11,272 nucleotides of DNA from assembly GCA_905233515.1 (NCBI GenBank), contig CAJOEQ010000008.1, positions 1,112 through 12,383 of the forward strand. The letters run 5' to 3'. The notes below the pieces were generated by a model, which was given only the letters and a program-made list of their open reading frames with translations, was not told the origin of the DNA and did no database searches. The DNA comes from an uncultured Synergistales bacterium. Its GTDB lineage: Bacteria; Synergistota; Synergistia; Synergistales; Aminobacteriaceae. Numbering within the stretch: the first letter of the stretch is position 1; every line of letters begins with the position of its first letter. The position numbers were made by a program, and so were the translations under genes. Positions 1,540-11,272 of the stretch are shown here, piece by piece.

Positions 1540-3492
1540 TTATAACATTAAGAACGCAATCACGAATAATAAACCGACTGCAAATGTCATTAAGCCATAT
1601 GCAAGACTTGAGGGCAAAAGAGTCCCTACTGTCTCATTTTTTGACTCATCTTGATAGAATCCGAAATCAGTATCTTCAGGCGGCTTAATAAATTTAATTC
1701 TTGACATATTAGACAATGCCAAAGTAACCGGCCCCGCTGTTATTAAATCTAAAATTTTCGCAAATAATGAGCCTATAAACGGCAATATCAAGCCAATAAC
1801 CGGCCTGAATAAGAAATTTTCTATATTGAGCCACGCAGGCCACTTGTCATAATAATTATAATTTTCGCGGCTGATTAAAAATTTTTTAATGAACAAGAAA
1901 TATACTATTACCCCGATTGAAATCGAAATTAATGAGCCTTCTAAATTTGCGAACGTGAAATAATTTATAAAGTGATGATGTTCAGGGGCATTCATGAAAG
2001 CCGAGCCGAGTACGCTAATTTTATCGCCTGTATCATAAGGCAGCATTCCTATTAACGGCAGCAATAAAGCCGAGAAAGTTAGCAAAAACGCATTTATTCC
2101 AGAAATATATTTTTCTTTCACGTGCATATCTTGAGAAGGCCGGGCAATGAATAACGCTACAAATAATTTTATTACATATGCAGTAGTCAAGCCGCCTGAA
2201 ATCAAGAACAGCCATTCACAAATATTAAATAAAAATTTTTCGCTTGAAAGACTCATAAATCCAAGAGTCCCCGCCGTGTGATGTATATGTTCTACAATGC
2301 TTTCATGTATTAAAGTTTTGCCTAAATATCCATTCCATAACGGCGCACCCATCAGGCCAAGACCTCCCATTATGAAAGCAAACATAAAAACTTTTTTCCC
2401 ACGTCCGAAACCTTTTATATCATTCAAGTTTAATTTATGAGTATTCATGTGAACTACTCCGGCACAAAGAAATAATACTAATTTTATAAGCGAATGACCG
2501 ACCATATATAAAATTGTGCCTCTGACTGCTAGATCATTTTCTTGACCGAGAAAACACTGCATAGCAATACCAGTTAAAATAAAACCTAATTGAGACATTG
2601 ACGAACATGCTAGAGTGCGCTTAATATTTATTGAGAATACAGCGAGAACAGCTCCGAGAGTCATTGTTATAATTGCTAGAATCAAGAGCAAAAATCCCCA
2701 TATAGAATCATGCAAGAATACCCCCGCAGATAATATAATTATTCCGAATAGTCCCGATTTAGTTAATAGTCCTGATAATAAAGCACTTGAGGGAGCAGGC
2801 GCGGCAGTATGAGCAGTAGGCAGCCATATATGAGACGGAAATATAGCAGCTTTTGCCGCAAATCCGGTGAAAATCAACACACCTGAAATATATAGCTCGT
2901 TCTTGTCGATTTTGAGCCGTGATAGTGAATCAATATCAAGAGTCCCCGTTTTCGCGTAAAATAAAATCAGCCCCGTTAAAGTAACAAGCCCGCCTATAAT
3001 TGCAATTGCTAAATAAGTCTGTGCGGCTCGCTGGGCTTCTCTTGTTTCGTCCTGAACTACCATAATATACGAGAATAATGACATCATCTCGAAAAATATA
3101 AATGTCGTGTATAAATCTCCTGATAAGAATACTCCCATGATTGAGCCTAGAGTCATTAACACGTATAAATAATAGCGATTTCTATTCCTGTGATGAGTCA
3201 AATATTCGCGTGAAAAAATTGTAGTAACTGCCCACATGAAAGCAATTATTACAGCATAAATATATCTGAATCCATCAAGACAAAATTTTATGCCCAGTCC
3301 GCAAACTCCGGCGGCTTTGAATTCAGTACCGAGAAATTTATACGCGTAAAGAGTTGTAGCAAGCTCAAGCAAACAAACAAAATCTGCCGTGTAATCGCGA
3401 ATTTTCCTGTCTTTTTTGCCGACAAAATACGAAATAAGCCCGCCCGTCATCGGCCATAATACTAAGAATAATAATAAAAAATTGCCTTCCAT
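1540..3492 (-). CDS. Stand-alone MrpD/NuoL-like proton-translocating antiporter subunit
   Basis: A 650-residue polytopic membrane protein of the family shared by complex I NuoL/M/N, Mrp antiporters and membrane hydrogenases. The channel residues are all visible: Glu135 in FIFFEMMSLF, Lys214 in GFAAKAAIFPSHIWLP, the AHTAAPAPSSALLSG segment (227-241), Lys245 in LLTKSGLFG, His333 and Lys337 in GHSLIKLVLF, and Lys392 in YLGKTLIHES. SMSQLGFILTGIA (298-310) is the usual helix after the broken helix. Beyond about residue 460 there is an extra region with a His cluster (505-507), further membrane helices and a soluble loop, so it is longer than a typical MrpD (about 500) and nearer NuoL or MrpA in length. 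AAGGAG (complement of 3503-3508) precedes the ATG by about 10 bases. No other Mrp, Nuo or hydrogenase gene is adjacent: the gene stands alone between a divergent promoter region and a convergent terminator. Proton or sodium translocation across the cytoplasmic membrane is the likely role; the partner complex is unknown. Confidence 0.85.
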   Translation of the reverse strand: MEGNFLLLFLVLWPMTGGLISYFVGKKDRKIRDYTADFVCLLELATTLYAYKFLGTEFKAAGVCGLGIKFCLDGFRYIYAVIIAFMWAVTTIFSREYLTHHRNRNRYYLYVLMTLGSIMGVFLSGDLYTTFIFFEMMSLFSYIMVVQDETREAQRAAQTYLAIAIIGGLVTLTGLILFYAKTGTLDIDSLSRLKIDKNELYISGVLIFTGFAAKAAIFPSHIWLPTAHTAAPAPSSALLSGLLTKSGLFGIIILSAGVFLHDSIWGFLLLILAIITMTLGAVLAVFSINIKRTLACSSMSQLGFILTGIAMQCFLGQENDLAVRGTILYMVGHSLIKLVLFLCAGVVHMNTHKLNLNDIKGFGRGKKVFMFAFIMGGLGLMGAPLWNGYLGKTLIHESIVEHIHHTAGTLGFMSLSSEKFLFNICEWLFLISGGLTTAYVIKLFVALFIARPSQDMHVKEKYISGINAFLLTFSALLLPLIGMLPYDTGDKISVLGSAFMNAPEHHHFINYFTFANLEGSLISISIGVIVYFLFIKKFLISRENYNYYDKWPAWLNIENFLFRPVIGLILPFIGSLFAKILDLITAGPVTLALSNMSRIKFIKPPEDTDFGFYQDESKNETVGTLLPSSLAYGLMTFAVGLLFVIAFLML

Positions 3493-3666: not shown

Positions 3667-3671
3667 GGAGG
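3667..3671 (+). promoter_or_regulatory. Shine-Dalgarno that decides the start of the fusion gene
   Basis: GGAGG lies 12 bases before ATG 3684. The same frame stays open to a TTG at 3636, but that codon has no ribosome binding site, and the GGAGG would then lie inside the coding region. The protein starting at ATG 3684 begins IKSFKVLEAYSGD, as expected for a CDC48 N domain, so 3684 is preferred. The spacing is a little long. Confidence 0.7.
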
Positions 3672-3683
3672 ATTCATAATAGT

Positions 3684-6600
3684 ATGATTAAATCTTTTAA
3701 AGTCTTAGAGGCTTATTCGGGCGACGCTATGAAGGGACTCGCACGGATTCACCCTGATGATATGAACGCATTAAATTTGTCAGAAGGTGATTTAATAGAA
3801 CTCACCGGCAGAACTACAACGCCCGCACGAATCAGAGCAGCCGATAAAGAAACAGGCACGGGAATAATTCAAATCGACGGACTTATACGAGAAAACGCCG
3901 GAGTCTCTCTTGACGAAAATATAAATCTTGAGACAAGCATAATTTATCACTTTGCAGGAAGTATAACCCTTCAGCCCTTAGGAGACGTAAAATTATCTGA
4001 CAGGGAGAAAGACGAAAATTATATACTTTCACTCTTAGAAGGTCAGGCAGTCAGAGTCGGTGATAGAATCCGCGTTAATTTATTCGGGACTCGTATTTGC
4101 GACTTTCAAGTTACAGCAGCGACTCCCGACGGCACTGTCATAATTAATAAATCTACTTATTTAAATTTGCTCAAGCCTTTAGAAATAAAACACTCTCACA
4201 AAATTTCTTATGAAGATATAGGCGGTCTTAGTTCACAGATTCGCAAAGTCCGTGAAATGATAGAGCTGCCGTTAAGATTCCCGCAAGTTTTTGAGCGTCT
4301 AGGAATTCAACCCCCGCGCGGAGTGTTATTATATGGCCCTCCCGGAACTGGTAAAACAGTAATAGCCCGTGCTGTAGCAAATGAGACTGACGCATGGTTC
4401 ACTCATATATCAGGCCCGGAAATAATAGGCAAATTTTACGGTGAAAGCGAAGAAAGATTACGCAAAATTTTTGAAGAGGCTCAAGACCGCGCACCCTCGA
4501 TTATATTTATAGATGAGATTGACGCTATAGCCCCTAAACGTGCCGACATGGGCGGAGAAAAACAGGTAGAACGCCGAGTAGTTGCGCAGTTACTCGCATT
4601 AATGGACGGTTTGAAATCACGCGGTCAATTAATAGTAATAGGAGCTACAAATATTCCGAATTCTTTAGATCCTGCTTTGAGAAGGCCGGGAAGATTTGAC
4701 AGGGAAATTTCGATTCCAATTCCTGACAGAAACGGGCGGCTTGAGATTTTAAAGATTCATACTCGGGGAATGCCTTTAGCTAAAGACGTTGATTTAATGA
4801 AAATTGCTGATTTATCACATGGCTATGTCGGTGCAGATTTAGAAGCTCTTGCGAAAGAGGCCGCTATGTCCTGCGTTAGAGATATTTTACCGATGATTAA
4901 TTTCACGACTCAAGAAATCCCATATGAAGAAATTGCAAAACTTGAAGTTACTCAACAGCATTTTATGAATGCATTACTAGAGACTAACCCATCGGCGACT
5001 CGTGAGTTTTTTGTTGAAGTCCCTGATACTAAATTCAGCGATATAGCAGGACTCGACGACATTAAGCAGCAATTAATTAACGCAGTAAGACAACCTTTAG
5101 AACACGCTGATTTATTCATAAAGCACAAATTAACGCCCATTAAAAGCATTTTACTATATGGAGCGCAGGGAACTGGCAAAACCTCACTAGCTAAGGCACT
5201 TGCTCATGAAAGCGGCTTAAATTTTATAAACGTTCAGAGCGCAAATTTATTATTACGTTATCAGGGAGACTCAGAACGCGCGCTAAAAAATATTTTCCGT
5301 GTAGCAAAACAGGCAGCACCCTCAATTATATTTTTTGACGGGATCGACTCAATTTTTCCGGAAAAGAATCCGCCTTCTCAAACTTTACGAGGTCAATTTT
5401 TTGCGGAACTCAACGGAATCGAAGAACTTAACGGCGTTACTGTCTTAGCTGCAACTGATAATCCCAGAGGTTTAGACAAGGCTTTATTTTCTCCGACAGT
5501 CTTTAATTTGCGCGTAAAAATTCCTATGCCTGAAGAGAATGACCGAGCAGAAATTTTTAAACTTGAACTCGCTAATAAGCCATTAGATAATAATATTGAT
5601 TTTATAGAATTAGCGCAATCAACTGAAGGACTTAACGGCGGAGATATTAATTTTATTTGCAGGAGTGCCATAATGGAAGCTCTAAACGAGAACACGGACG
5701 AATTTATTATAAAACGTGAAAATTTTGACGAGGCTATAGACTCATTCAGTGAGATAATAGCAAAACGCAAAGAATCAAACGAGCAGGAAAAATTACAGGA
5801 AAATGCTATAGAAATCACAGCAGAAGCAAGTTATTCAAGACTTGATGTTTTCTTAGCTGAAAAAATAAATATAACCCGCTCACAAATACAAAGAATGCTC
5901 AAAACCGGCGCGGTTTCTCTCAACGGGGAAAAGCATTTAAAGCAGGCTCAAAAAGTGAATAAGGGCGATAAAATTATTGCAATTGTCCCAGAGTCAGAAA
6001 ATATCACGGCTCTTGTCGGTGAAGATGACGTACCATTTGACGTAATTTATGAAGACGATCATTTAATCGTAGTCAATAAGCCAGCGGGAGTCATCGTTCA
6101 CCCAGCACCCGGGAAAATGCACGGCACATTAATTCAAGGACTCGTCCAGCGTTATCCGGAAATGAAGGAAATGGAAGGATTTTTGCGTCCGGGAATTGTC
6201 AGCCGCTTAGATATGGGAACATCGGGACTCTTAGTCGTTGCAAGAAATCAAGAGGCTTATATTTTGCTGCAAAAAATGTTCGCTTCCCGTGAAGTAAATA
6301 AATATTATTTAGCACTGGTACACGGACATTTGCCGCAGCCTGAGGGGATTTTATCGGGGCCCATTGATAGAGATCCTAACGATCAAACTCACAGCATTAT
6401 AGTTGAAGGCGGGAAGCCCTCAATAACCGGCTATAAAGTCATAAAGGAGACTCGAAAATATTCGCTAGTTGAATGCAAATTATATACTGGTAGGACTCAT
6501 CAAATTAGAGTTCACATGTCAGCGGCTGGGTGTCCTTTATACGGGGATTCTGCTTACGGCGCGCCTGAAAAATTCATGAATCGAGTATTTTTGCATTCGT

Positions 6601-6707
6601 GGAAATTGTCATTTATTCACCCTGTAACAGGCAAAGAATTATCATTCAGGCAATATATACCTGAAGAGTTTAGTAATTTATTATATGTCTTGAATCACGA
6701 GAATTAA
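3684..6707 (+). CDS. Fusion protein: CDC48/VCP-like AAA+ ATPase (N-D1-D2) joined to an RluD-like 23S rRNA-type pseudouridine synthase
   Basis: A 1007-residue cytoplasmic protein. Residues 1-165 form a CDC48 N domain (double-psi barrel; KVLEAYSGDAMKGLARIHPDD near the start). D1 (about 172-435) is canonical: Walker A GPPGTGKT 218-225, Walker B IIFIDEID 273-280 (Asp277, Glu278), sensor-1 Asn323, arginine fingers Arg334 and Arg337 in RRPGRFD, pore loop KFYGESE. D2 (about 444-690) keeps Walker A GAQGTGKT 493-500 but reads FFDGID at Walker B (Gly553 replaces the catalytic Glu), ATDN at sensor-1, and SPTVFN where RPGRFD belongs. An acidic/basic linker leads to an S4 RNA-binding domain (712-770) and an RluA-family catalytic domain (780-1000): HPAPGK 806-811, SRLDMGTSGLLV 840-851 with catalytic Asp843, GRTHQIRVHM 936-945. 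The family isomerises uridine to pseudouridine in RNA; RluD itself acts on 23S rRNA. There is no in-frame ATG, GTG or TTG at the junction (5760-5882), so the synthase has no obvious separate start. The gene is monocistronic, between a divergent promoter region and a convergent terminator. Domain calls are secure; coupling of the two activities is inference. Confidence 0.93.
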   Translation: MIKSFKVLEAYSGDAMKGLARIHPDDMNALNLSEGDLIELTGRTTTPARIRAADKETGTGIIQIDGLIRENAGVSLDENINLETSIIYHFAGSITLQPLGDVKLSDREKDENYILSLLEGQAVRVGDRIRVNLFGTRICDFQVTAATPDGTVIINKSTYLNLLKPLEIKHSHKISYEDIGGLSSQIRKVREMIELPLRFPQVFERLGIQPPRGVLLYGPPGTGKTVIARAVANETDAWFTHISGPEIIGKFYGESEERLRKIFEEAQDRAPSIIFIDEIDAIAPKRADMGGEKQVERRVVAQLLALMDGLKSRGQLIVIGATNIPNSLDPALRRPGRFDREISIPIPDRNGRLEILKIHTRGMPLAKDVDLMKIADLSHGYVGADLEALAKEAAMSCVRDILPMINFTTQEIPYEEIAKLEVTQQHFMNALLETNPSATREFFVEVPDTKFSDIAGLDDIKQQLINAVRQPLEHADLFIKHKLTPIKSILLYGAQGTGKTSLAKALAHESGLNFINVQSANLLLRYQGDSERALKNIFRVAKQAAPSIIFFDGIDSIFPEKNPPSQTLRGQFFAELNGIEELNGVTVLAATDNPRGLDKALFSPTVFNLRVKIPMPEENDRAEIFKLELANKPLDNNIDFIELAQSTEGLNGGDINFICRSAIMEALNENTDEFIIKRENFDEAIDSFSEIIAKRKESNEQEKLQENAIEITAEASYSRLDVFLAEKINITRSQIQRMLKTGAVSLNGEKHLKQAQKVNKGDKIIAIVPESENITALVGEDDVPFDVIYEDDHLIVVNKPAGVIVHPAPGKMHGTLIQGLVQRYPEMKEMEGFLRPGIVSRLDMGTSGLLVVARNQEAYILLQKMFASREVNKYYLALVHGHLPQPEGILSGPIDRDPNDQTHSIIVEGGKPSITGYKVIKETRKYSLVECKLYTGRTHQIRVHMSAAGCPLYGDSAYGAPEKFMNRVFLHSWKLSFIHPVTGKELSFRQYIPEEFSNLLYVLNHEN

Positions 6708-6719
6708 TTTATGAAAATA

Positions 6720-6769
6720 TGCGGTGCTGCTTTGATGGAAAATTTATAACAACACCGCAAAAATTTTTT
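6720..6769 (+). terminator. Terminator between the convergent fusion gene and YjfF-like permease gene
   Basis: A 7-bp perfect stem, TGCGGTG (6720-6726) and CACCGCA (6753-6759), extended imperfectly by a few pairs, is followed by AAAAATTTTTT. It ends transcription of the plus-strand fusion gene. The stop of the minus-strand permease lies at 6768-6770, so its transcript enters the same stem, but the tract beyond it on that strand (TATTTTCAT) is weaker. The loop is long, about 26 bases. Confidence 0.65.
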
Positions 6770-7796
6770 ATTTCCTGCTCGCTGAAGTAGTTATTACTCT
6801 CTGAATGCATATAAACAATAGCAATAATAAACCTGTCGCAATTTTGCCCCACCATGATAATAAATTGCCGTTGAATGTAATTAAAGCAGGTATTATTGAT
6901 TTCAAGAGAACACCGAAAAGAGTACCAGCCATGTAACCGACTCCGCCGGTTAAAAGAGTCCCGCCTATTACTGCACAGGTTATTACTTCGAGTTCGCCGC
7001 CCTGTAGTGAAAGATTCCAGCCGCTTTTTACGTAAAGAGCGTAACTTATACCGGCCAAGACTGAACATAACCCGTTAAAGCCGTAAACTAAAATTTTAGT
7101 TCGTCCGACTGGGAGTCCCATTAAGGCCGCTGATTGTTCATTGCCTCCGATTGCGTAAATATTCCGCCCGAATCGTGTTCGCTGTAAAATAAAAGCACCG
7201 ATTAATATTACAATCAAGAATAATATCACGTTGAAATTTATAAAAGCTATAGGCTTAATTCTTACCCATTTCCCATCAGCAAATTTCATTAAATAAATTT
7301 TCCAGCCTGCTAACGAGTCTATCATGGGATGATGTATATCAATTGATTCACGGCTTATCAGTGAGCAGACCCCGCGCGCTAAAAACATACCTGTCAAAGT
7401 AGTTATAAACGGCGGAACGTTCAAATAATGAATTACCCAGCCCATAACGAGGCCAAGACCGACTCCCATAACTATAGCCGCAGCAATGCAAATTAACGGG
7501 TGAAGATTTAAAACTGTAGTCCCATATGCTATAAACATTCCAGTTAAAGACGCTACAGCACCGACTGATAAATCAATACCGCCCGTGATTAATACCATAG
7601 TCATGCCGACTGCTGAAATCCCGAAATATGCATTATCGATAAATAAATTTACAAATGTCCTAACAGTTAAGAAGCCTTTATCACCGTAAAGAAATGCGCC
7701 GATTGCATAAATCACAAGAAAAATTCCTATAGTGGCATATACCATTATATATTTAGGATTAGTTATCTTGCTGAAAAAACTTTGTCGATTTCTCAT
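6768..7796 (-). CDS. yjfF: Sugar ABC transporter permease, YjfF-like (galactofuranose-type system)
   Basis: A 342-residue inner-membrane permease of the BPD_transp_2 (ribose/galactose) family with about 8-10 hydrophobic segments. Family marks are GGIDLSVGA (72-80), the cytoplasmic coupling loop TRFGRNIYAIGGNEQSA (207-223), and VIGGTLLTGGVG (276-287). Several stretches match E. coli YjfF as I remember it rather than RbsC or MglC: TGMFLARGVCSL followed by ESIDIHHP (150-157), and TFNGNLLSWWGKIATG near the C-terminus (307-322). In E. coli, YjfF pairs with YtfT as the heterodimeric channel of a galactofuranose importer. Its ATG overlaps the stop of the YtfT-like gene by 4 bases (ATGA), indicating translational coupling. 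It is the last gene of the minus-strand cassette. The family assignment is firm; the exact sugar is inferred from resemblance. Confidence 0.87.
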   Translation of the reverse strand: MRNRQSFFSKITNPKYIMVYATIGIFLVIYAIGAFLYGDKGFLTVRTFVNLFIDNAYFGISAVGMTMVLITGGIDLSVGAVASLTGMFIAYGTTVLNLHPLICIAAAIVMGVGLGLVMGWVIHYLNVPPFITTLTGMFLARGVCSLISRESIDIHHPMIDSLAGWKIYLMKFADGKWVRIKPIAFINFNVILFLIVILIGAFILQRTRFGRNIYAIGGNEQSAALMGLPVGRTKILVYGFNGLCSVLAGISYALYVKSGWNLSLQGGELEVITCAVIGGTLLTGGVGYMAGTLFGVLLKSIIPALITFNGNLLSWWGKIATGLLLLLFICIQRVITTSASRK

Positions 7797-8857
7797 GATT
7801 TCGCCCCCTCTTGACGCATTGCCGCTCGTTTTGCAAAATATTTTCTGACTGGCTCAGACTGCAAAACAATAACGACTGCTATAATTAACGCCTTAAATGC
7901 CATAGTAGCTTCTGCAACAATCCCGAAATAATATACAAATGTTACAATTGTGCGAATAATTAACGAGCCTACTACAGTCCCTGCAAGACTAAACCGCCCG
8001 CCTGACATGTTAGTGCCGCCTATTACTACAGCTAAAATCGCGTCCATCTCAAAATTTAAGCCCGCATTATTTGAATCATTCGACATTATACGACTCGAAT
8101 AAATTAATCCCGCTATTCCTGATAATAAGCCGGTAATCATGAAAACTAATAAAATTACTTGGCCGGCTTTGATTCCTGAAAGTCTGCTGGCACTGGGATT
8201 AACTCCGACTGACTCGACAAATGCACCGAACGCGGTTTTACGAGTAAATAAAGCAACTGCAACAACTACTATAATCGTAATAATTATTGGCATGGGTAAA
8301 CATAAAAAACTCCCTTGTCCGATAACTCTAAAAGGTGAATAACCTGTAGTAAATTGCTTACCATCCGTTAAAATTTGAGCGATTCCACGACCGCAGACCA
8401 TTAATATTAAAGTCGCAATAATCGGCTGCATTCCGCCTTTTGCAACAAGAAATCCGTTAAACAGTCCCATTAAAGCACAGACAATCAAAGGCACTCCGAG
8501 AACTAAAATATACGGATAAACTGTATAATCTCCGGGAGTCGTATATGTCAGAACGTCCCAGCGCAAAAATTTCAAGGCAATAGCTCCGGCAACTGCAACA
8601 AGTGCACCGACCGACAAATCAGTCCCGCCCAGCGCAATAACGAGAGTCATTCCCATTGAAATAATCGTGATTTCTGCTGAACGATTCACAATGTCTATTA
8701 AGCTCCCGTAAAGCATACCGGTTGAAGGTTGATAGCTTATACTGAAAAAATCAGGCCGAATCAGAAAGCAGACTAGCAAAATTAAAGCCTCAGCAATTAC
8801 TGCCCATGTTACTTTTGACTGCATAAGCCCGGAAATATCAAATTTTTTTGCTGACAT
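7793..8857 (-). CDS. ytfT: Sugar ABC transporter permease, YtfT-like (galactofuranose-type system)
   Basis: A 354-residue inner-membrane permease. The hydrophobic N-terminal helix (about 16-33) is followed by GSLIDIVNRSAE (51-62) and GGTDLSVGALVAVAG (77-91), where the conserved Asp80 is kept. ATLILMVCGRGIAQ (148-161), the coupling loop TRKTAFGAFVESVGVN (205-220), NNAGLNFEMDAILAVVIGG (263-281) and the GGRFS segment correspond well to E. coli YtfT. Together with the YjfF-like protein it would form the two-subunit channel driven by the YtfR-like ATPase. The ATG directly abuts the TAA of the ATPase gene (TAAATG), and a G-rich ribosome site (AGAGGGGG) sits in the end of the ATPase gene. Transport of a furanose or similar monosaccharide is inferred from the family match. 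Confidence 0.87.
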   Translation of the reverse strand: MSAKKFDISGLMQSKVTWAVIAEALILLVCFLIRPDFFSISYQPSTGMLYGSLIDIVNRSAEITIISMGMTLVIALGGTDLSVGALVAVAGAIALKFLRWDVLTYTTPGDYTVYPYILVLGVPLIVCALMGLFNGFLVAKGGMQPIIATLILMVCGRGIAQILTDGKQFTTGYSPFRVIGQGSFLCLPMPIIITIIVVVAVALFTRKTAFGAFVESVGVNPSASRLSGIKAGQVILLVFMITGLLSGIAGLIYSSRIMSNDSNNAGLNFEMDAILAVVIGGTNMSGGRFSLAGTVVGSLIIRTIVTFVYYFGIVAEATMAFKALIIAVVIVLQSEPVRKYFAKRAAMRQEGAKS

Positions 8858-10357
8858 TTAAGCCGCCCCCTCTGCTATGATTCTTAAAATATCCTGCTGA
8901 GTGCATGAAGAGCCTTCAACTTCTGCAACTTTTTCACGATCACGCATTATTATAATCCTGTTTGAGCAGCGTATTATTTCGTCAAGTTCAGAGCTTATAA
9001 ATATTAACGAGACTCCATCTTTGCACATTTCAAGCATTAGACGCTGAATTTCTGCTTTAGCTCCTATATCGATTCCACGCGTGGGCTCATCGAGAATTAA
9101 AATTTTTGGGCTCGCTGCCATCCAACGAGCTAAGATAACTTTTTGCTGATTACCTCCTGAGAGTTCACCGGCTTTTTTCTCGCAATCGGGAGTCGCTATT
9201 CCTAAAAGTTTTATGTATTTATTAGCAAGATCTTCTTGTTCCTGACGAGTCATAGGATGTGTAAAACCTTTTCGAGACTGCACAGCAAGCATTATATTTT
9301 CTCGTATGCTCAAATCGCCGATAATTCCGTCGCGCTTTCTATCTTCAGGACAAAAGGCAATCTGTGATTTTATTGCGTCAAATGGCTGCTTGATTTCTAC
9401 TTTTTCGCCGTCGATAAAAATATCGCCCCGTGAAATTTTTTCAGCTCCGAATAACATTTCTGCTGTCTCAGTCCGTCCGCTGCCTAAGAGTCCAGCAAAT
9501 CCTATTAATTCACCTTTTCGCAATTCTAAAGAAATATCATTTATTTGCGAGTCCCCTATGTGTTCAGCTTTTAATACAATATCCGCGTCGTCCTGAACTT
9601 CTGCACGTTTCAAGCTAAAAATCACGTCCATATCTTTACCGACCATTTTTGTAACAAGCTCAAATTTTCCGAGTTCGTTAATTTCATAAGTCCCGATTAA
9701 ATGACCGTTGCGCAAAATTGTCATTCTGTCTGATACGGCGTAAATCTGATCTAAAAAGTGAGTTATAAATATTATTCCCATTCCTGAAGATTTTAACTCA
9801 CGCATGACACTGAATAATAATTGTACTTCGTTCTCATCTAGTGAGCTTGTAGGCTCGTCGAGAATTAAAATTTTTGCTTGAATGTCAACGGCTCTAGCTA
9901 TAGAAGTCATTTGCTGTATTGCAGTCGAATAATAAGAAAGCGGGCGGGTTACGTCAATATCTAAATGAAAGCGAGACATTAACTCTTCTGCTCTGTGATT
10001 GATTTCTGACCAGTCAATTTGGCCGTGTTTCATGGGCTGACGACCGACAAAAATATTTTCAGCGACGCTCAAATTTGGACATAAATTTATTTCCTGAAAG
10101 ACGGCAGAAATTCCCAGCTCTATAGCATTCCCCGGCCCAGTCGGGTGAATCTCTTGACCGTCAAGAATAATTTGCCCCGAGTCCATTTGATTAACACCTG
10201 TCAGACATTTTATAAGAGTCGATTTTCCTGCGCCGTTTTCGCCTAAAAGTGAGTGAATTTCGCCCGCCCTTAGTGAAAAGTCAACGCCGTCAAGTGCTTT
10301 AACTCCCGGAAATTGTATAGTTATGCCCTTCATTTCGAGAATATTTTTTCCTGACAA
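8858..10357 (-). CDS. ytfR: Sugar ABC transporter tandem ATPase, YtfR-like
   Basis: A 499-residue protein with two fused ABC ATPase domains, the length typical of RbsA/MglA/YtfR. Domain 1 has Walker A GENGAGKST (39-47), Q-loop FQEINL (87-92), a divergent signature (SYYSTAIQQM, 141-150) as in YtfR, Walker B ILILDEPT (163-170) and the H-loop His200. Domain 2 has a modified Walker A (GLLGSGRTE, 289-297, Arg in place of Lys, usual for this family), the marker EDRKRDGIIG (338-347), signature LSGGNQQK (399-406) and Walker B ILILDEPTRGID (419-430). It energises the YtfT/YjfF channel from the cytoplasmic side. The start is TTG 10357, with GGAGGG (complement of 10365-10370) 7 bases upstream; the first ATG, at codon 8, lacks such a site. 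It is the first gene of the three-gene cassette. No periplasmic binding protein (YtfQ) gene lies in this window. Confidence 0.9.
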   Translation of the reverse strand: MSGKNILEMKGITIQFPGVKALDGVDFSLRAGEIHSLLGENGAGKSTLIKCLTGVNQMDSGQIILDGQEIHPTGPGNAIELGISAVFQEINLCPNLSVAENIFVGRQPMKHGQIDWSEINHRAEELMSRFHLDIDVTRPLSYYSTAIQQMTSIARAVDIQAKILILDEPTSSLDENEVQLLFSVMRELKSSGMGIIFITHFLDQIYAVSDRMTILRNGHLIGTYEINELGKFELVTKMVGKDMDVIFSLKRAEVQDDADIVLKAEHIGDSQINDISLELRKGELIGFAGLLGSGRTETAEMLFGAEKISRGDIFIDGEKVEIKQPFDAIKSQIAFCPEDRKRDGIIGDLSIRENIMLAVQSRKGFTHPMTRQEQEDLANKYIKLLGIATPDCEKKAGELSGGNQQKVILARWMAASPKILILDEPTRGIDIGAKAEIQRLMLEMCKDGVSLIFISSELDEIIRCSNRIIIMRDREKVAEVEGSSCTQQDILRIIAEGAA

Positions 10358-10364
10358 ATTGAGT

Positions 10365-10370
10365 CCCTCC
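10365..10370 (-). promoter_or_regulatory. Shine-Dalgarno supporting the TTG start of the ATPase
   Basis: GGAGGG on the minus strand sits 7 bases before TTG 10357, an ideal spacing. This supports the TTG start over the in-frame ATG seven codons later. Confidence 0.8.
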
Positions 10371-10387
10371 TTATTTGATAAATTCTT

Positions 10388-10421
10388 GAGAAGTCAACGC
10401 CGTCAAGCAAATTGACTCCTC
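10388..10421 (-). other. Hairpin in the leader of the sugar-import cassette
   Basis: On the minus strand GAGGAGTCAA (10421-10412) pairs with TTGACTTCTC (10397-10388): 10 bp around a 14-base loop. The one imperfect pair is G-U in minus-strand RNA but A-C in plus-strand RNA, so the fold favours the minus-strand transcript. No U-run follows, so it is not a simple intrinsic terminator. It may protect or separate two message segments; its function is unknown. Confidence 0.45.
10391..10407 (-). repeat. 17-base exact copy of ATPase coding sequence in the intergenic leader
   Basis: CTTGACGGCGTTGACTT (minus strand) also occurs inside the ATPase gene at 10278-10294, where it encodes LDGVDF (residues 22-27). 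After one mismatch the next three bases also agree (TTCTCA against TTTTCA), and that mismatch is synonymous in the ATPase frame. The copies are direct and about 113 bases apart. Confidence 0.7.
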
Positions 10422-10423
10422 TT

Positions 10424-10432
10424 ATAATAGCA
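10424..10432 (-). promoter_or_regulatory. Candidate extended -10 promoter for the YtfR-YtfT-YjfF cassette
   Basis: The minus strand reads TGCTATTAT, an extended -10. TTATCA (complement of 10446-10451), inside the end of the upstream permease gene, is a possible -35 at 16 bases. A start near 10417 would leave a leader of about 60 bases. Because no U-run terminator separates it from the upstream permease, read-through from that gene is also possible. Confidence 0.35.
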
Positions 10433-10440
10433 AAAATTTT

Positions 10441-11272
10441 TTACTTGATAACTTTCAGGGCTTTGCGGTCAATAGTCAGTGCTACGAAAATCAAGAATAC
10501 TACACCTTTTATTAATTGCTGAGTTGCTGACTCATAGCCTAACATGACAAGGCCGTTATTTAAAACAGTATACATGAGAGTGCCGACTACGATATTTGAG
10601 AATCTTACTTTAGCACCGCCCGTGATAGGCAGCCCGCCCAGTACTAACGAGATTAATATTTGAGTCTCTAACTGATTCCCCGCTGTTGCAGTAATTGAGC
10701 CTACTTTTATGACATTCACGAATGCAGCAAGCCCCGTTAATGCACCTGCAGCAACGAACGCTAAAAATTTGACTCTATCAGTGCGGACTCCTGAAAATCT
10801 TGCGGCTGTTTCTCCTGATCCTACGGCTTTAACGTCATTTCCGATTCTGGTAAATTTGAACAGGAAAAACGCAATTATTAAGACTCCGACTGTTATAGAA
10901 ATCTTTAAATTATCGCTGTCAAGTGCCTTTATTGCTGCTGAAGCGGGGATCGCTGTCTCTGTTGTGAGATAAGCACAGACTCCGCGAAATAAATACATTG
11001 TGCAAATTGTAACTATAAAACTTTGAAGTCTGAATTTAACATGAAAGAATCCATTTACAGCACCGATTGCCGCACCCGTTAAGATTCCGCCTATAATTGC
11101 AAGAGGTATACTATAAAATGAAAGCATTGACACTACAATTGAAGCTACACCGAGAGTCGATCCTTCTGTGAAATCAATTGAGCCTAGAGTCATTACAAAA
11201 AATACGCCGGTTGCTACTATCATGGGATAATAGACTTGAGATAATAATAATCTAAGCTGACGAGGCCGCATA
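10441..11272 (-). CDS. Monosaccharide ABC transporter permease, RbsC-like (N-terminus beyond right edge)
   Basis: The last 276 or so residues of a BPD_transp_2 permease. The Met encoded at 11269-11271 is probably internal: MRPRQLRLLLSQVYYPMIVATG aligns with the segment that lies some 30-50 residues into RbsC-type proteins, so the true start lies outside the window. Family features are GSIDFTEGSTLG in the place of the usual GGIDLSVGS, the coupling loop TRIGNDVKAVGSGETAARFSG, and LVLGGLPITGGA. It has multiple membrane helices and a short basic C-terminal tail (DRKALKVIK). It does not look like YtfT or YjfF and is probably the last gene of a separate upstream sugar-import operon. An 83-base gap separates it from the YtfR-like gene. 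The substrate is unknown. Confidence 0.82.
   Translation of the reverse strand, partial: MRPRQLRLLLSQVYYPMIVATGVFFVMTLGSIDFTEGSTLGVASIVVSMLSFYSIPLAIIGGILTGAAIGAVNGFFHVKFRLQSFIVTICTMYLFRGVCAYLTTETAIPASAAIKALDSDNLKISITVGVLIIAFFLFKFTRIGNDVKAVGSGETAARFSGVRTDRVKFLAFVAAGALTGLAAFVNVIKVGSITATAGNQLETQILISLVLGGLPITGGAKVRFSNIVVGTLMYTVLNNGLVMLGYESATQQLIKGVVFLIFVALTIDRKALKVIK

Follow-up and report, generated by a model that had tools for sequence, protein, structure and literature searches.

The locus examined here raises the question of why a CDC48-type AAA+ ATPase and a pseudouridine synthase should share one open reading frame (ORF), and what such a protein might do. The ORF lies in an 11,272-nt stretch of contig CAJOEQ010000008.1 (assembly GCA_905233515.1), hereafter called the window, from an uncultured Synergistales bacterium whose genome assembly (G000; 2.03 Mb in 353 contigs) is 89.6% complete. 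We regard the ORF as a real fused gene, made once from a pair of overlapping genes, and think it fairly probable that it encodes a hexameric unfoldase driven by its first AAA module (D1) and carrying a tethered synthase, with both activities kept.

From the ATG at 3684 to the stop codon at 6705–6707, a single frame of 1,007 codons runs without an internal stop, and translation and Pfam searches confirmed the initial annotation of this DNA in that CDC48 N, D1 and D2 modules are followed in the same frame by an S4 domain and an RluA-family catalytic domain. Pfam placed CDC48_N at residues 5–82, CDC48_2 at 110–162, AAA over two stretches, S4 at 719–764 and PseudoU_synth_2 at 793–947, all above the curated cut-offs (Table 1). 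By its domains, namely the N domain and the two AAA modules, the head belongs to the CDC48 proteins, and its score against the NCBIfam CDC48 model (TIGR01243) is 747.2 bits, below the cut-off of 802.65. The tail scored 265.1 bits against the RluA subfamily model (TIGR00005; cut-off 192.7) and contains Asp843, which we take to be the catalytic aspartate, and these two features place it in the RluA family. Its score against the RluD equivalog model (194.4 bits) is below the cut-off of 351 but still higher than that for RluC (136.3). Because of these scores, we speak of a CDC48-like head and, within the RluA family, of an RluD-like tail; the label 'RluD-type' used at first thus holds at the level of the subfamily but not at that of the equivalog. 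A program-made ORF list offers an alternative start at TTG 3636, but ATG 3684 appears preferable, as it has a GGAGG sequence upstream and matches the start of three other fused protein clusters (P0002–P0004).

Table 1. Features of the fused gene in the window (boundaries of D1, D2 and the junction were set by us)
Feature	Position	Strand	Details
Fused CDC48–RluA-family ORF	3684..6707	+	1007 aa; translation, Pfam, NCBIfam
Shine-Dalgarno-like GGAGG of the fused gene	3667..3671	+	Sequence motif
CDC48 N domain region	3684..4178	+	Residues 1–165; Pfam, boundary at 165 our own
D1 AAA module	4179..5003	+	Residues ~166–440; Walker A K224, Walker B D277 and E278, arginine fingers R334 and R337 intact
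D2 AAA module	5004..5753	+	Residues ~441–690; Walker A K499 kept; Walker-B Glu replaced by G553; arginine fingers replaced by S603 and V606
AGGAG (5661–5665) with in-frame ATG 5673 (codon 664)	5661..5675	+	Candidate internal start of a 344-aa synthase
Junction	5754..5819	+	Residues ~691–712; AlphaFold helix 678–706 continues from the D2 lid
S4 RNA-binding domain	5838..5975	+	Residues 719–764; Pfam
PseudoU_synth_2 catalytic domain	6060..6524	+	Residues 793–947; Asp843 at 6210–6212; HRLD changed to SRLD

Comparison with related genomes indicates that the fusion is genuine, clade-specific and retained. When a match at E 1e-150 or better was taken as CDC48, 38 of the 43 genomes surveyed in the genus carried such a gene (none was found in G017, G020, G034, G064 and G065), and it is fused to the synthase in four, namely G000, G062, G016 and G032. 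As read from the match coordinates, the two genes are adjacent but separate in 32 of the 38 genomes, including G003 and G008, where the genes are cut by contig ends, and G015, where ~590 bases lie between the two matches; they are apart in G018 and G024. The same open junction as in the window is seen in G062, G016 and G032. The protein database contains five clusters of fused proteins, P0001 to P0005, with 13, 2, 16, 3 and 1 member sequences, respectively; P0001 represents the protein of the window itself, P0002 and G016 are identical in the CDC48 tree, and P0005 lacks the N-terminal part. G023, one of the 32 genomes with separate neighbours, was considered as a fifth fused genome and rejected, because its CDC48 frame ends in a TGA, 15 nt after which comes an in-frame ATG. 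Outside the genus, both matches were found in 26 of 38 genomes of the family and 12 of 24 genomes of other families of the order; none of these 38 genomes with both matches has an adjacent pair, although many of the assemblies are fragmented and a contig end could hide a case.

The arrangement in unfused relatives suggests how the fusion may have arisen. The named records nearest to it are assemblies titled Synergistaceae, uncultured Synergistales or uncultured Fretibacterium, many from ruminant stomachs. Among their 24 loci, one (L054) is fused, one (L053) has no visible synthase and 22 have both genes. The two frames overlap in 19 of these 22, by 4 nt in 13 loci and by 7, 8, 11 or 17 nt in six; no overlap was found in L031, L043 and L045. 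Similarly, 22 of the 26 unfused loci with both genes in the genus genomes show an overlap, mostly of the form ATGA, GTGA or TTGA, where the 26 and the 22 loci come partly from the same organisms and starts were chosen mechanically. One study describes overlapping gene pairs as coupling translation and as enriched for subunits of complexes, with 30.4% of Escherichia coli pairs at −8 to +10 nt encoding heteromeric complexes versus 6.8% of those >20 nt apart (PMC10666635). Two loci are irregular: in L029 (G015), a long Ala/Glu/Lys-rich stretch lies between CDC48 and synthase and forms one 480-codon frame with the synthase, and in L045 (G028), at ~8090–8340, the CDC48 end and the synthase start occur twice, as if the junction were partly duplicated.

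The fused forms make up one clade in the CDC48 tree (68 rows, quick method; Shimodaira–Hasegawa-like approximate likelihood-ratio test [SH-aLRT] 99). The same holds for the synthase tree (43 rows, careful method; bootstrap 100, SH-aLRT 100), which omits G008, its synthase being truncated. Near-copies, such as G016/P0002 and G018/P0116, are present in the trees and motif tables. The unfused G027 stands next to the fused clade in the CDC48 tree (support 86) but not in the synthase tree. Since trees of either half unite the fused forms, the fusion appears to have arisen once, and one joining event is the simplest account of them; repeated independent fusions, hinted at by the differing linkers of G032 and G000, were rejected on the same ground. 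We therefore agree with the initial annotation that this is a true fusion, given the open junction in relatives, the five protein clusters and the single clade in both trees, and its recurrence, proposed there as a check, was found in the four genomes and the five clusters. Separate genes in relatives, which it had named as speaking against a fusion, do occur in most of them; the fusion stands nevertheless, since the fused forms group as a clade and have an open junction.

The neighbours of the gene vary among loci. A dnaN-like gene lies downstream on the same strand in 10 of the 24 loci and a glmM-like gene upstream in six, some loci being too short to show them; both names are our own reading of the sequences and not the result of a family search. 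Among the fused loci, G032 keeps the glmM/dnaN order and G016 the glmM side, whereas the window and G062 have other neighbours, which implies that the surroundings of the fused gene changed at least once. In summary of its origin, we propose that cdc48 and an rluD-like gene, as overlapping neighbours, were joined once in one sub-clade of a Synergistaceae genus. Apparent losses of the genes were also noted. In G065 (99% complete, 0% contamination), the fused query found nothing at E 1e-58, so that both the CDC48 and the RluD-like protein are lacking, but a protein like the second synthase of G000 is kept; this was not accepted as proof of a link between the genes, because one deletion would remove both. 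G064 retains the RluD-like gene and has no CDC48 match, and in G034 a partial RluD-like match lies at a contig end, so that the missing CDC48 may be an assembly break. In genus g25, G086, G087, G088 and G089 have CDC48 and no synthase match at E 1e-58, with 2, 3, 2 and 1 PF00849 matches, respectively.

The head had been described as a full CDC48 N-D1-D2 module. This is true of D1, where the residues listed in Table 1, together with N323, are present in all seven fused rows that cover them, but not of D2. The Walker-A Lys and Walker-B Asp of D2 are still present, while both arginine fingers, at positions that we presume to correspond to those of p97, are gone and the Walker-B Glu is Gly in all eight fused rows (seven distinct). 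At the latter position, the 51 unfused rows of the genus have Glu (36), Gly (12), Asn (1) or Asp (1), with one row uncovered, and the outgroup has Glu (9/9). The first D2 arginine finger is missing in all nine outgroup rows, where the second is Arg (9/9), and the second is missing in most rows of the genus. Of the three parts, D2 has also diverged most (mean identity to G000 over 59 rows: D2 0.544, N 0.725 and D1 0.889). Because D2 residues are already missing in unfused rows, their loss began before the fusion, and the alignment points to a step-wise loss of D2 hydrolysis residues across Synergistales CDC48. With neither arginine fingers nor the Walker-B Glu in D2, D1 alone should drive the ring, and we infer that labour is divided as in NSF, D1 acting as the motor and D2 as a scaffold. 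A second AAA protein, with a match to D1-D2 only (48–53% identity over the best stretch) and no N-domain match, was seen in G005:C39, G003:C242, G028:C143 and G023:C7. We know of no well-defined job for bacterial CDC48 proteins.

In the tail, Asp843 is kept in all seven distinct fused proteins. A conserved Tyr and the GRTHQIRVHM stretch, which presumably also serve the synthase reaction, are kept as well. All fused forms have Ser directly before RLD (His in 34 of 35 unfused rows) and Gln818 (Asn in 35 of 36); an R781D change was dropped because it rests on a single unfused row. Three PF00849 matches were found in each of the 10 genomes tested, fused and unfused. In G000, the second protein (a 217-residue piece) scores 113.1 for RluC, 112.7 for TruC and 104.0 for RluD, a narrow lead, and is 27.6% identical to the fused tail, compared with 47–65% for RluD-like genes from four relatives. 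The third match, in a frame of 234 codons, is weaker. Since the second synthase is nearer to RluC/TruC and far from the tail, the fused tail is the only RluD-like copy found in the G000 assembly, which is 89.6% complete. RluD modifies positions 1911, 1915 and 1917 of 23S rRNA.

Both halves have remained under purifying selection after the fusion, with the S4 domain and the linker the least constrained. Between G000 and G062, the ratio of non-synonymous to synonymous substitution rates (dN/dS) is 0.061 for N, 0.051 for D1, 0.040 for D2, 0.072 for the linker (22 codons), 0.095 for S4 and 0.065 for the catalytic part. In more distant pairs, which are near saturation at synonymous sites, D1 has a dN/dS of 0.03–0.06. 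The junction, at 20–22 codons, is too short for selection on it alone to be judged.

Several known systems resemble parts of the protein. VCP-like ATPase (PDB 5g4f and 5g4g, which we take to be archaeal VAT and which gave the best PDB sequence match) and CDC48/p97 (TIGR01243) have the same order of N, D1 and D2, but the fused protein differs in its depleted D2, its C-terminal synthase and its lower TIGR01243 score. NSF, a eukaryotic SNARE-breaking factor not known to carry a fused enzyme, is similar in the scaffold ring inferred for D2. One AAA ring of NSF is held to serve nucleotide-dependent hexamerization (PMC5070193). E. coli RluD (PDB 1v9f, 1qyu and 7bl5) likewise consists of S4 and catalytic domains and was aligned over residues 16–302 of the 306 searched, but the fused tail sits behind CDC48, has SRLD for HRLD and is below the RluD equivalog cut-off. 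Rix7/NVL2 and Drg1/AFG2, to our knowledge without a synthase part, are likewise CDC48-type double-ring ATPases, and large-subunit assembly is a proposed analogy. D1 is intact and D2 degenerate in the fused protein, whereas D2 is held to be the main motor of Rix7 (PMC6355894) and both AAA domains of Drg1 are active (PMC6920918).

On the reading that we prefer, the product would be a hexameric CDC48-type unfoldase, likely powered by D1 alone, and the D2 ring, which keeps Walker A but not the hydrolysis residues, would probably act as a nucleotide-bound scaffold. From each D2 lid, a helix predicted in a monomer model would lead to an S4-RluA module, which would lie where the C termini are, at the exit of the ring, and by its family this module presumably pseudouridylates helix 69 of 23S rRNA. 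The unfoldase and synthase activities are probably both kept, joint action on pre-50S particles is possible, and a role in the ribosome is a fair hypothesis, no more. The fusion would most likely fix what the overlap had already given, namely co-synthesis and co-location. What makes the locus useful is that a gene pair adjacent in most genomes of the genus, mostly overlapping and then fused, offers a concrete lead to a CDC48 partner. Moreover, living relatives show the unlinked, adjacent, overlapping and fused states together with the step-wise loss of D2, so that the question of whether fusion means function becomes testable with the forms of sister species.

Five points weigh against this reading. 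First, distant pairs are less constrained at S4 (dN/dS 0.22–0.41) and at the linker (0.14–0.82, the highest value being that of G016–G032), where computable. Second, in all fused forms SRLD takes the place of HRLD next to the catalytic Asp, which could mean an altered activity, although RsuA-type enzymes have other residues before RLD, and SRLD need not therefore kill activity. Third, the AlphaFold monomer model (mean pLDDT, the predicted local distance difference test score, 82.2) shows a helix at 678–706 connecting the D2 lid to the linker, and then a strand at 708–712, but its predicted template modelling score (pTM) is 0.37, so that the placement of domains is not fixed by the model, and pLDDT is 69 and 64 in blocks at 691–710. 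Fourth, the candidate internal start at 5673 would permit a separate synthase. Fifth, RluA-family domains occur with many other partners, so that a shared function is not implied.

This last point comes from a survey of long RluA-family proteins (~554–1762 aa with a synthase domain), of which 120 matches were listed of 344; the domain names for some Pfam accessions are presumed. Among the 120, five contain a CDC48 part, all from the fused clade, and the other 115 do not: partners are PF01121 (dephospho-CoA kinase) in 80, PF08282 (HAD) in 18, PF03793 (PASTA) in four and PF01252 (LspA) in three, while six have a single partner of another kind and in four S4 is the only further domain. Like the fused protein, those with such partners join an RluA-family domain to another protein, but there the partner is not an AAA unfoldase, and no CDC48–RluA fusion from outside the clade was among the 120 matches listed. 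A search of the open-access literature, judged by title and abstract start, found no account of the CDC48–synthase architecture, an absence that is limited evidence; no paper on a dephospho-CoA kinase fused to a pseudouridine synthase was found in the open-access literature either. These results agree with the initial remark that the architecture is not an established one: the domain pairing is new and its origin ordinary. As RluA-family domains fuse with many partners, fusion alone argues little for the ribosome-assembly or ribosome-rescue remodeller that the initial annotation suggested, and the functional link appears to rest more on the overlap kept across the genus.

We give an appreciable chance, somewhat short of even, to a fusion without functional coupling, in which an overlapping pair that existed by gene order had its frames joined and each half works as before. 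The overlap makes joining easy, and partners other than CDC48, above all dephospho-CoA kinase and HAD, predominate among the 120 matches listed in the survey. However, no reversal of the fused state is seen in the seven distinct proteins, although in G000, G062 and G016 the old position offers the synthase no start, which makes reversal hard anyway. The long stem of the synthase (0.46) and the two changed conserved residues hint at adaptation, and the gene stayed whole while its surroundings changed in the window and G062.

It is more doubtful, though plausible enough to be weighed, that two products are made, the full-length fusion and a separate synthase from ATG 5673. The initial annotation was correct that codons 690–712 hold no in-frame start, and none of ATG, GTG, TTG and CTG occurs in frame between codons 664 and 738, but it overlooked the ATG of codon 664 upstream of the synthase, which has AGGAG 7 nt upstream. 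Internal in-frame starts with a five-base Shine-Dalgarno core at 4–11 nt number 1 of 33 in G000, 1 of 39 in G062 and 1 of 45 in G016, each time the codon-664 ATG; as the sole such start, it may allow a separate synthase to be made as well. G032, P0003, P0004 and P0005, which make up the other sub-clade, retain a Met at the old synthase start instead. Nevertheless, Met664 is common in unfused D2 as well, synonymous redrawing puts the core at ATG 5673 in 2.8% of draws, and over 33 starts about one chance match is expected (a rough sum). In G032, none of 46 internal starts has a core, and its AGGAG stands 21 nt away from the Met. Across the three genomes, the five bases are conserved no more than background (348 of 652 comparable codon pairs), and their conservation was rejected as support.

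We consider it unlikely that the protein is a ribosome-assembly remodeller in which binding of the tail to helix 69 of pre-50S would keep the D1 motor in place to pull off an assembly factor, as Rix7/Drg1 on pre-60S, with modification and remodelling coupled. The CDC48-type Rix7 and Drg1 are proposed to release factors from pre-60S (PMC6355894), and the enrichment of heteromeric complexes among closely spaced E. coli pairs (30.4% versus 6.8%; PMC10666635) would also fit. However, the main motor of Rix7 is held to be D2, the very module that is degenerate here, the pair was seen adjacent in one genus only and RluA-family domains have many partners. Improbable would be the further step of an independently evolved bacterial counterpart of the eukaryotic pre-60S ATPases, in which a CDC48 ring with a single engine would be anchored to helix 69 of pre-50S by an RNA-modifying domain and modification would gate the ATP-driven release of an assembly factor. 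Finally, a stop lost or a frame shifted through an error in assembly or sequencing, which the 353 contigs of the window genome might suggest, has a negligible chance and was rejected, since the open junction is common to G062, G016 and G032 and clusters P0002–P0005.

As for the rest of the window, inspection by eye suggested a sugar-type ABC transporter gene set on the minus strand downstream of the fused gene (6768–11271) and an antiporter or NADH-dehydrogenase-like membrane subunit on the same strand upstream of it (1540–3492).

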